Source: a cyanobacterium endosymbiont of Rhopalodia gibberula
GTDB lineage: Bacteria; Cyanobacteriota; Cyanobacteriia; Cyanobacteriales; Microcystaceae
DNA: 64,000 nucleotides
Assembly (NCBI RefSeq): GCF_003574135.1
Contig: NZ_AP018341.1
Coordinates: forward strand, 1,240,001-1,304,000
Reading direction: 5' to 3'
In this document: positions 18,888 through 55,322 of the stretch, one piece after another
Layout of the letters: each line of letters begins with the position of its first letter
Numbering within the stretch: position 1 is the first letter of the stretch
Notes under the pieces: generated by a model
What the model was told of the DNA's origin: nothing
What the model saw: only the letters and a program-made list of their open reading frames with translations
The model's database searches: none
Program-made: the position numbers and the translations under genes

Positions 18888-20344
18888 AGTATTTCCTCCG
18901 AGTTTTAGTGTTTGAATATTATAATTTTTCTATTGTGACAGACTTTCTTCTCCTGTTTCAACGAAATTTTTTCATTGTTGCAGAGGTAAATAGACTAAAT
19001 ATGCTTTTGCTTTTTAAGTTGCTTATTCAATATCAATTTTTAAGTTGTTTTAAGGAGACGATCACTTATGTAACTTCAATGTCATCTTTAGCTCTTGATT
19101 ACCCAAAGTATCTAATTGACTCACTACTGCATCACAGACTCGTTCATTGGTATCAGTAATCAGGAATTATAGTAAGATAAAATCAATTTTATGGTAAAGT
19201 CAACATAGTTGATCTTGCCCTTTAATAGAGTCGCTAAAATTGGGAGAAGTTAGGAGTCATTGTACCTATTCGGAATTAATTATCTAACTTAATTAGTTAG
19301 AATAAACTTTATAGTCATTAGGTTTTAGTTTTTATGTTAGACTACTGTGCATTATATCAGTGAAATTTAATCGTTATACCGGACTGACGATGTAGAATTA
19401 ACTAGTGAAATCTCAAGTCAAAAAACTTCGGAGTTAAACCTTACCAATTCTCTAGATTTTTTTAGGAAAATTAAATAAATATTAATATATTCTTATATAT
19501 CCTTTACTATTTTTAAAATAGTCCTTAGTTCAGGATAGGTACTGACTGCTCTAATCTAACGCCTAGTTTAGTTCTTTAAAGGCTTTCTGAGTGCAACAAA
19601 TAGACTATTCATAAGAATTAACTCGTTTTAATAGTCCTGATATAAGATTTTATTTTCTATAAAAAACCTTCTAAATTTCTAATTTAATAGAAATCGATTA
19701 AATCAATATAATGTATTATACATTTATAATGGTTTGATGTCATTGTCTAGCTCTCTGTTCTCTTTGCAATCTATTTATTCTTAAGTAAGGAATACTTTTT
19801 ATGTCTGTCTATGACATATTTTTTCCTTCGTTTAGTATTTTGAAGTTATATCGAATATATACTGGTTTAGTGAGATGAAATATATCTCCTACTAATTTAG
19901 CTTTTTACATTAATTTGTTCGTTATAATCTTGTATTTTTTAAAGGTATACTCATATTTCTACTTTTACTAAAAACCTCTTTCTTATGAAGTTTGCTGTTC
20001 CTAATCCAGATAACTTCTTTTGTTTGCTTTGTTTGTTTATAGTCTTTCAGTATTTTTTATTATTCACCTCGTAAAGTTATTTAGTGATTTGTTTTTTACA
20101 TGAACTAATTTTTTCAAAAAAATCATTATTACTGTTAAATTTTACAAATTATGAAGAATGTTCGAGAAATAATTAACTCCAATTATTTGAAAAGAACAAC
20201 TCAACCATCTAGCACATCTTCAATTTATTCATAAGATTAATACAAACTCTCTGTGATTATAGAAGACTTGACGACAGAAGTGTCAAATGGGTTAAGATAC
20301 AAACAATATGTGATTTGTAGACTTATTTTTCAGGATAATCATTA
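18888..20344. other. Gene-free stretch upstream of dapB
   Basis: A 92-codon plus-strand frame starting at 18881 overlaps the ferredoxin start and looks spurious. On the minus strand near 19070-19165 a short fragment reads ITDTNERVCDAVVSQLDTLGNQELKM, protein-like but unassigned. The rest is AT-rich with nothing recognisable. Confidence 0.5.
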
Positions 20345-21346: not shown

Positions 21347-21625
21347 TTAAATTAATACAAAAGGTTGCAAAATTAATGTGTTAAATAAAATAGAATAATC
21401 AGCATTCCAAGTTGTTAATTGTTCGGAAGATGGTTTGTGAATTAAGGTTTTACTAATCCAATTTTACGCAGAGTTGACATCATCTTGAGAAATGGCCACT
21501 CCGACTTCTATTAAGTCTAAATATTTAGTTACAAAAATGATAGCGTCTCTTTGTGCATGAGGCGTTAAATATTGCCATTTAACATTAGAAAGATCTTCAC
21601 TAAAGCGAGTTTTGAGATTTTTCAT
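21347..21625 (-). pseudogene. DUF2288 gene interrupted by one in-frame stop
   Basis: The minus strand from ATG at 21625 reads MKNLKTRFSEDL, KWQYLTPHAQRDAI, IEVGVAISQDDV, then TAA at 21466-21464 (codon 54). It continues in the same frame with NWISKTLIHKPSSEQL, TWNADYS and LILQPFVLI to a stop at 21347. The total is 93 codons, the normal DUF2288 length. A single base change (most likely CAA to TAA) explains the defect; otherwise the gene is intact. Function of the family is unknown. This is a recent pseudogene, or a gene kept by readthrough. Confidence 0.85.
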
Positions 21626-21669
21626 TGATTAATTTTCCACAAGAACTGCAAAGATAGATTATCCTTAAC

Positions 21670-21734
21670 AGGAAGTATACAAAAAATGATGGATCAACCT
21701 CAAGGAGTATACAAAAAATTATGAATCAACCTCG
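21670..21734 (+). promoter_or_regulatory. Duplicated start region of queC with a 12-codon upstream frame
   Basis: Two tandem copies of about 33 bases: the first reads AGTATACAAAAAATGATGGA and on to TCAACCTC, and the second has TATACAAAAAATTATGAATC at the real queC start. The first copy keeps its own ATG (21686), giving [12 protein letters not shown], and its TGA overlaps the queC ATG (ATGA). Each copy has an AGGA(A)G element upstream. The layout would allow translational coupling. Confidence 0.75.
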
Positions 21735-22404: not shown

Positions 22405-24247
22405 TTAACGAACTTCGAAAGTCAGAACAAGAAAAAGCTTTTTACCTTATTCTTATAAATTTGAGAGATAGGATAAGAAAAGTCAGTGGAATGTAGATCT
22501 AATGATGTAGATGTAATAAAGTTTTGTTTTTTTAACAGATTAGGATATCAACTTTACGATAAAACTTGAATTCGTCTTTTTAATCAATAGCTTCTTCAGT
22601 AGGTCTAAAATTTAAATAACTAAGCAGGGATAATAGATAAGCATAGATACAATTAATAATCAAGCATTTTCTTCTATTCCTTAGAGTACTTGTACTCTAA
22701 GGAATAGAAGAAGTGATCGTTGTTTTTTATAAATCCTTAGTTTAAAATTTACCATGATTAGGTTAAGAATAACTTCGTTATGAGAAATTGTTTTTCCATT
22801 CATAGAATGAGTATGTTTATCAACATATTTATATATAAAAGTTTATCTAAGTTACTATTTGAGATCTTCTTAAAGAGAAGAATAATTTTTTTTATAAATT
22901 AAAATATTGTTTATATGCTGTTTATTTAAACTTATTTAGAACTTAAAAATTATACTTATCAAGTAACATTTATTTTTTTAAATCCTAACTAATTAGAGCT
23001 TAATTTTTATCACTAAATTTTAAAAAAGTATCAATATAATTAAAACTATAAGTATTTTTTTGCCTTTGGATTTAAATTTAATTATTTCTAATACTTTTAA
23101 AGTTGTATAAGCCAACTTAAATACAAGAAAATCACAAAGTATAAATTTTTTTAGAAAATATAAACAATACGCATTCTAATTATAAGATAAGTCAGTTTTA
23201 TTGAGATTTATTTACTAAAATTTTATTAGAACAAAATCATAAAATTGTTCTGTTTTACTCAGAGGATAAACTTGTACTAATAGATAGAATACAAGACAAT
23301 TATGGCGCTCATAATCATAAAGATCTTGTTAAACTAACATAAAAATAGTCTTTGAAAAAATTAATACTATGTTTGATAAAATAGTTGGGAAATATAATGA
23401 TACTCAATCTCTAGTAGAAACTTTATGATATAAAATTGAATATTTTATTTATGTTAATTTTACCTTAATTTATTTAAGATATCAATAAATACCCTATTTT
23501 GATAAAAAAGAAAGTTCAAAATAGAATTGTTAAAATATAAAAGCAGCATTACTTGGACTTTTGTTCATCCCACTTATCTTTAAGATCCTCATAATTGTAA
23601 TAATTTATAAGCCTAGTTTTTTTGATAGAACTATTTATGATTTTTTCCTTTATATTCCTGAAAAGGGACTATATTCTACTTAATTTTGCTATGTTTAAAA
23701 TTTAATAAAAGAAACTGTTTCTACATTAGGAGATAAACAAACGATAGGATAAATTTATAAAATTTGAGGGGAACGTTATGTGATCTTTGATGGACTAGCT
23801 TATGCTTGTAGAATGGCGACGGAAAAGTCATCAGATGAGCCCAAAAGTATTGGTTATTAGCCAAAACAGTTCAACTTAAGTAAAAATAAAGCTTTTTCCT
23901 TAAAATTACAATATTTTTTTGTTAAAATTTATCGAATATTAAATGAATTAAACTGAGCACAAGAATATGACTGATTTGGAGCTTAAAAGATTATTTTTAA
24001 AATAATTATTTTGTATTGGAACACGATAAAACTAACATCGATCCTCTTCTTAATAATTGAATTTTAACTACCTAAAGAATCTATTAAATTATTTCAGGTT
24101 GAAACCGACAAAAATTAGAATATGTAACATAGGGCTGTCTATCACGAATCTACAGTTAGGTTCGTAATAAATATCCTTCTTCAATGAAAAGAAGATTTTA
24201 GTATATCTTGATTTACTAATTTTACCGACTCCAGAAAGTAAATCATA
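22405..24247. other. AT-rich gene-free stretch with a palindrome and an unassigned relic
   Basis: Holds the 21-bp inverted repeat at 22669-22712. Around 23760-23860 the plus strand reads GERYVIFDGLAYACRMATEK and more before a stop, with higher GC than its surroundings, so it is probably a fragment of a lost gene. I cannot name it. Confidence 0.5.
22669..22712. repeat. 21-bp perfect inverted repeat, 2-base loop
   Basis: TTCTTCTATTCCTTAGAGTA(C) and its exact reverse complement are separated by TT, about 270 bases after queC. It may end queC transcription, but no T-run follows. Confidence 0.9.
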
Positions 24248-54461: not shown

Positions 54462-54573
54462 ATGGAGAATGGCTAAGTTGAACTTAACCACCAAGAGTAT
54501 TAAATTTTCATAAGGTATTATGGAGAATAGTCAAGTTAAACTTAATCACTAAGAGTCTTAATTTTCATAAGGA
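54462..54573. repeat. Tandem repeat (two units, 58-base period) in the ado leader
   Basis: Unit 1 (54462-54516) and unit 2 (54520-54573) both run ATGGAGAAT, then CAAGTT/TAAGTT, AACTTAA, CCAAGAGT/CTAAGAGT, TTTTCATAAGG. Unit 2 ends about 53 bases before the ado ATG. Possibly promoter duplication. Confidence 0.8.
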
Positions 54574-54626: not shown

Positions 54627-55322
54627 ATGCAAGAGCTTGCCACACGCTCAGAGCTTGAGTTCAACAGCGAAACCTATAAGGACGCCTACAGCCGCATTAA
54701 TGCCATCGTTATTGAAGGCGAAGAAGAAGCGTATCAAAATTATATAGATATAGCTCAAATGTTACCTGATCACAAAGATGAGTTAATCCGTCTTGCTAAG
54801 ATGGAAAGTCGTCACAAGAAAGGTTTTCAATCCTGTGGGAAGAATTTGAGCGTTACTCCTAATATGGAGTATGCTCAAAAATTTTTTGCCCAACTTAATG
54901 GAAACTTCCAACAAGCCAAAGCCCAAGGAAAGATTGTTACTTGCTTGTTAATTCAATCTTTGATCATCGAAGCTTTTGCTATTGCTGCTTATAATATTTA
55001 CATTCCTGTTGCTGACCCCTTTGCTCGAAAAATTACTGAAAGAGTGGTTAAAGATGAATATGCCCATCTAAGTTTTGGTGAGGCCTGGCTTCAAGAGAAT
55101 TTTGAAACATCAAAAGCGGAATTAGAAGAAGCTAACAAAGGCAATTTACCTATCGTTTGGACAATGCTTAATCAAGTTGAAGACGATGCAGAAGTTTTAG
55201 GAATGGAAAAGGAAGCATTAGTTGAAGACTTCATGATTAGTTATGGAGAGGCATTAAGTAGTATCGGTTTTAGCACCCGTGACATTATACAAATGTCCTC
55301 CTATGGCTTAAAAGTAGCTTAG
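54627..55322 (+). CDS. ado: Aldehyde-deformylating oxygenase
   Basis: 231-aa ferritin-like diiron enzyme that converts fatty aldehydes to alkanes and formate, the second step of cyanobacterial hydrocarbon synthesis. Metal ligands are visible: Glu in [13 protein letters not shown], Glu-x-x-His in KMESRHKK, Glu in SLIIEAFAI, and Glu/His in [11 protein letters not shown]. Length and C-terminus (SYGLKVA) match the family. ATG with AGGAG 12 bases before. The partner gene for acyl-ACP reductase (aar), usually next to ado, is not seen downstream. A terminator follows at once. Confidence 0.96.

Follow-up and report, generated by a model that had tools for sequence, protein, structure and literature searches.

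The start of queC in the spheroid body of the diatom Rhopalodia gibberula (RgSB) raises the question of what follows when the translation-initiation region of a gene is duplicated directly ahead of that gene. Spheroid bodies are nitrogen-fixing bacteria that live inside diatoms, and queC is a tRNA-modification gene. The window analysed here is a stretch of 64,000 nucleotides, positions 1,240,001-1,304,000 of the single contig of 3,020,309 bases that represents the RgSB genome (G000). It has been compared with three other endosymbionts: G003, taken as the spheroid body of Epithemia turgida (EtSB; 2,794,318 bases), and two reduced genomes that share a genus with RgSB, G001 (3,072,807 bases) and G004 (2,483,960 bases). 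The genus set comprises seven genomes, with one genome per species. The reading that we favour, with a probability of roughly two in three, is that the initiation region of queC has become a minisatellite by slippage, with a single origin in the RgSB/EtSB lineage, and that it is tolerated, its mini-ORFs being coupled to queC with a minor effect.

An earlier note on this DNA had claimed that the queC start is duplicated in tandem, and this is what is found: two adjacent, head-to-tail copies, identical at 28 of 32 positions, each taking in the ribosome site, the ATG and the first codons of the gene (Table 1). The unit, put at about 33 bases in that note, measures 32 nt. The first copy gives rise to the 12-codon upstream ORF that had been described, running from the ATG at 21686 to the TGA at 21722-21724, and this stop does overlap the true queC ATG. 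A longer RgSB QueC, read in frame from within the repeats, was rejected, as position 21721 is the first ATG, GTG or TTG after the preceding stop in that frame.

Table 1. Features around the queC start of RgSB (window coordinates)
Feature	Position	Strand	Remarks
DUF2288 gene remnant, divergent from queC	21347-21625	-	In-frame stop at codon 54
Repeat copy 1	21669-21700	+	Like the single copy of G001 (2/32 differences)
Weak Shine-Dalgarno of the mini-ORF, AGGAAG	21670-21675	+	10 nt before ATG 21686; -5.0 kcal/mol
Mini-ORF (copy 1)	21686-21724	+	12 codons from ATG 21686; 11 from the second ATG, 21689
Repeat copy 2, derived, carrying the queC start	21701-21732	+	1/32 differences from the EtSB unit
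Strong Shine-Dalgarno of queC, AAGGAG, within the mini-ORF	21702-21707	+	13 nt before the queC ATG; -8.0 kcal/mol
ATGA, mini-ORF stop TGA (21722-21724) overlapping queC ATG (21721-21723)	21721-21724	+
queC, 7-cyano-7-deazaguanine synthase, 227 aa	21721-22404	+	Above cut-off for Pfam PF06508 and NCBIfam TIGR00364

No other place in the 64-kb window reaches 28 of 32 ungapped matches at offsets of 24 to 60, and none does so in 50 versions of it generated by an order-1 Markov model, which places the neighbouring head-to-tail copies above the chance level, as expected of a tandem repeat. The repeat is not among the rows returned by TRF at a minimum score of 40, presumably since a pair of copies that differ at four positions stays below that score.

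The comparison with relatives that the earlier note had proposed reveals a copy number that varies as in a minisatellite: two copies in RgSB, 9.5 in EtSB and one each in G001 and G004. The EtSB array (L111, 2004-2307) consists of units with 100% matches and reaches a TRF score of 608. It reads as nine identical 11-codon ORFs (MNQPQGVYKTL and a stop), in which every TGA overlaps the next ATG as ATGA, the last of these being the start of queC. When the unit pattern was searched with up to three mismatches in the seven genomes of the genus, one match was obtained in RgSB, nine in EtSB and none in four others; G005 holds a single match, with three mismatches, on another contig. Apart from that match, the pattern is confined to the queC locus in these genomes, and a dispersed repeat is thus unsupported. 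A search of viral contigs with a 24-base piece of the unit gave no exact match.

A broader survey was carried out on 110 queC loci, namely that of the window, the best 80 of at least 588 confirmed stretches (not cyanobacteria alone) and 29 of 38 other genomes, with at least one genome (SU2) counted twice (L002 and L084). To pass, a locus had to show a full unit of 20-70 nt repeated at 80% identity or more, from 200 nt before to 60 nt after the queC start. One locus was dropped because its N-terminus was unmatched, and only two of the 109 assessed, those of RgSB and EtSB, have the start inside a tandem repeat. A third locus that passes the test (L003, from Hyella) carries a 7-nt micro-repeat just 5' of queC that excludes the start.

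The bases of the individual copies bear on the age of the duplication. RgSB copy 2 and the EtSB unit have derived bases in common: the first of two adjacent ATGs is gone, and the second is now followed by an A, which creates the TGA overlap. Judging from these shared bases, the duplication very probably predates the split between RgSB and EtSB. Site patterns in the surrounding 41 kb favour the grouping of RgSB with EtSB only slightly, with 280 sites against 250 and 223 of 22,717 when G004 is the outgroup, and 32 against 21 and 17 of 1,671 with G002. These counts are weak, so the case for a single origin comes mainly from the derived bases within the unit. A collapse to one copy in G001 is a possible alternative, though G004 is also single-copy. 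The suggestion of the earlier note that a recent accident had been captured before decay holds better for EtSB, whose expansion to 9.5 perfect copies looks recent, than for RgSB, whose copies differ at 4 of 32 positions. The RgSB duplication, apparently common to EtSB and with a copy 1 that resembles the G001 single copy, does not appear to be a very recent event.

These observations suggest a course of events in which replication slippage would have duplicated the initiation region of queC once, on the lineage common to RgSB and EtSB. In EtSB, the derived copy would then have been amplified, and the original copy may have been lost between two ATTAT words. At the 5' end of the EtSB array, the upstream sequence shared with RgSB, GATAGATTAT, runs straight into the derived unit at ATTAT, and the ancestral copy is absent; such a direct junction is expected if the old copy was deleted in that way. 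Throughout this history, the last unit would always have provided queC with a complete Shine-Dalgarno and ATG, so that the copy number could drift while the gene survived. Growth of the array would not remove the queC start, and this may explain why a selected gene tolerates such an array ahead of it.

Purifying selection on queC is indicated by its dN/dS values, which range from 0.13 to 0.24 when the four endosymbionts are compared pairwise (six pairs; 0.14-0.22 for RgSB against EtSB, G001 and G004). In EtSB, the queC gene (L111, 2295-2999) lacks the stop used in RgSB and is seven codons longer, encoding 234 aa. The models for tgt, queF and queA have matches above cut-off in all seven genomes of the genus. 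The tgt matches of RgSB, EtSB and G001 contain one TAA each, in open frames of 389, 416 and 382 codons; this TAA has been taken as the terminal stop, because the match, though shorter than the frame, extends to the end of the model. QueG has been reported in all Rhopalodian endosymbionts (PMC12903740).

The divergent neighbour of queC is in a different state. The DUF2288 frame, which is interrupted in RgSB (Table 1), has its stop elsewhere in EtSB, at codon 62, together with an altered stretch, and it is open in G001, G004 and G002 (the Pfam match, PF10052, was obtained with the G002 homologue and not with the window's own frame). The gene is therefore broken in exactly the two repeat carriers among the five genomes read, a suggestive coincidence, in as few as five genomes, that would fit a relaxed constraint on the intergenic region between the two genes.

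On the mRNA, the units that precede the last one would behave as short cistrons coupled by their overlapping stops and starts, and some of the ribosomes ending at a TGA would restart on the ATG that overlaps it. Duplex energies were calculated with the 16S tail of the RgSB genome, which reads ACCTCCTTA (family search). In EtSB, the first unit has almost no Shine-Dalgarno (-0.9 kcal/mol), and the eight later mini-ORFs and queC all have AAGGAG upstream (-8.0); the single-copy starts give -7.7 in G001 and -4.2 in G004. The site of the RgSB mini-ORF is also partly paired in the predicted fold. The strong and accessible Shine-Dalgarno that the leader ORF of a bicistronic arrangement would have is accordingly missing in RgSB (-5.0) and from the first EtSB unit, while two other elements of that arrangement are present, as the queC Shine-Dalgarno lies inside the leader ORF and the leader stop overlaps the queC start. 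According to a 2025 review (PMC12548453), the ATGA spacing (-4 nt) is the commonest one, and coupling is most efficient between -4 and +3 nt. From this layout and the -4 nt overlap, some restart at queC is to be expected, and some ribosomes probably pass from the mini-ORF to queC, beside those that initiate independently at the queC Shine-Dalgarno. With d new ribosomes loading at every start, and a fraction r of those terminating going on to restart, output would be bounded by d/(1-r), and extra copies would matter little past the first few.

The layout could also have been favoured by selection, and this is the rival reading with most to commend it, though we consider it unlikely. It holds that QueC output is governed, through termination-reinitiation, by the mini-ORF or its copy number, and that this was selected since the queC Shine-Dalgarno is far (13 nt) from its ATG. 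The nearer ATG, which in G001 is 10 nt from the Shine-Dalgarno, has been lost in copy 2, where the TGA overlap has been gained; the resulting arrangement is that of engineered bicistronic leaders (PMC6302717), and the overlap has been retained in both genomes despite a queC dS of 0.22 between RgSB and EtSB. Survival of the ATGA geometry through two substitutions in the derived copy (loss of the first ATG and the new TGA) could be a hint of selection. However, two substitutions are too few to argue for it, and selection is unnecessary to explain the stop-start geometry: in 47 of 555 simulated duplications of the G001 start, a stop falls no more than 6 nt from the second start, because ATGATG already includes a TGA, which many unit lengths bring into frame. 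Furthermore, G001 and G004 manage without any duplication, and the first Shine-Dalgarno is weaker in RgSB than that of G001 (-5.0 against -7.7), and weaker still in the first EtSB unit. A stronger version, in which the coupled units act as a copy-number rheostat that steps QueC synthesis and tRNA queuosine up or down in endosymbiont populations, seems a long shot; if true, it would be a translational contingency locus made from the start of the gene itself.

The opposite view, that the array is inert DNA because transcription starts within or 3' of it, or because the mini-ORFs are untranslated and the last ATG alone is used, is also improbable, somewhat more so than adaptive tuning. In its favour, a sigma-70-like consensus scan of the plus strand gave no site, and the first start has a weak Shine-Dalgarno in RgSB and almost none in EtSB. 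The scan did find one minus-strand site at the repeats, which is uninformative, as shuffled sequences give a mean of 0.9. Nevertheless, all four endosymbionts share a conserved stretch ahead of the repeats, which ends in TAGATTAT, so that a promoter would be more likely there than inside the array, and in EtSB eight of the nine mini-ORFs, as well as queC, are preceded by AAGGAG. A mis-assembly in EtSB, at least with regard to the copy number, is very improbable. Repeats of this type can be hard to assemble, since the assembly of the related E. adnata endosymbiont is reported to have three gaps at unresolved tandem repeats (PMC11131595), and the EtSB copy number depends on the published assembly. 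Yet the RgSB copies are non-identical, and thus hardly an assembly invention, and copy 2 shares its derived bases with the EtSB unit. A leader riboswitch (preQ1 or any other RNA family) was ruled out, as the queC leader has no Rfam match at E values up to 1; the sole match at that level between positions 20000 and 23000 is to mir-627, at 22669-22711, which scores 23.9 bits where the gathering score is 86.

Tolerance of a slippage-born minisatellite, modest in RgSB with its two copies and striking in EtSB with its chain of nine mini-ORFs, is therefore considered the most likely account, with a minor translational effect and, as a regulatory system, probably a minor role. This locus can be compared with several known systems. 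In the bicistronic design, as described in PMC6302717, a first Shine-Dalgarno drives a short ORF that contains the second one, and the stop of this ORF overlaps the main start. The queC leader is similar, but it is natural, it comes from duplication of the gene's own start and its first Shine-Dalgarno is weak; moreover, EtSB chains nine short cistrons instead of one, and the coupling at queC is a predicted one. The overlap is like that of translationally coupled gene pairs with a -4 nt NTGA, although here the upstream partner is an 11- or 12-codon copy of queC's own start and not an independent gene. Tandem units whose number differs among relatives are also typical of bacterial minisatellites or VNTR, such as the Wolbachia repeat markers (PMC3287509). 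In contrast to those, the queC unit spans the ribosome site and the start codon, each extra copy adds an initiation site, and the comparison involves one genome per species. Finally, regulatory leader peptides and uORFs also consist of a short ORF ahead of a gene, whereas the queC mini-ORF peptide is not conserved, being missing in G001 and G004 and accompanied by a start-including repeat at just the two loci of the survey, and the leader lacks a known RNA family.

The locus thus illustrates how, in nature, a bicistronic leader, probably a coupled one, arises when a start site is simply duplicated in tandem, and why a repeat can grow in front of a gene under selection, as each copy brings its own start. 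The nine chained ATGA mini-ORFs of EtSB would offer a natural case for measuring repeated termination-reinitiation. Searches of the literature on repeats at translation starts, and on queC with tandem repeats and spheroid bodies, yielded no paper with such a case, judging from titles and abstracts, and the endosymbiont genome papers PMC5638926 and PMC12903740 make no mention of "tandem" or "tandem repeat".

The genomic background was sampled in 20 evenly spaced 20-kb stretches per genome (400,000 of 3,020,309 bases in RgSB and 400,000 of 2,794,318 in EtSB). A criterion of 28 or more matches out of 32 at offsets of 24-60 yielded five rows in EtSB, two of which are one place, and one in RgSB. 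None of these six rows includes the start of an ORF of at least 100 aa, and a general habit of duplicating gene starts is unsupported in the sampled stretches. One of the EtSB rows (L144, 17140-17200) comes near to it, a 24-bp tandem duplication that lies just 5' of an ATG that continues MAQNVDNIKDHVDLFHQ, which resembles the start of nitrogenase NifK; the ATG itself is excluded from the repeat.

In the same 400 kb of each genome, TRF reported 50 rows for EtSB and 31 for RgSB at scores of at least 50, and three and one, respectively, at scores of at least 150. The top scores, 634 in RgSB and 469 in EtSB (against 608 for the queC array), indicate that long arrays exist elsewhere in both genomes. 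They belong to near-perfect minisatellites, one of 81 bp in 4.1 copies in RgSB (L160, 15617-15947) and one of 46 bp in 5.2 copies in EtSB (L139, 14593-14830).

Another duplication, of 57-58 bp, is present in the window at 54462-54572, in the leader of the ORF at 54627-55322, whose product is presumably an aldehyde-deformylating oxygenase. It has two matches in each of RgSB, EtSB, G001 and G004, and one in each of G002, G005 and G006. Both RgSB copies open with ATGGAGAAT, but the short frames soon end with TAA, after 4 codons in one and 10 in the other.
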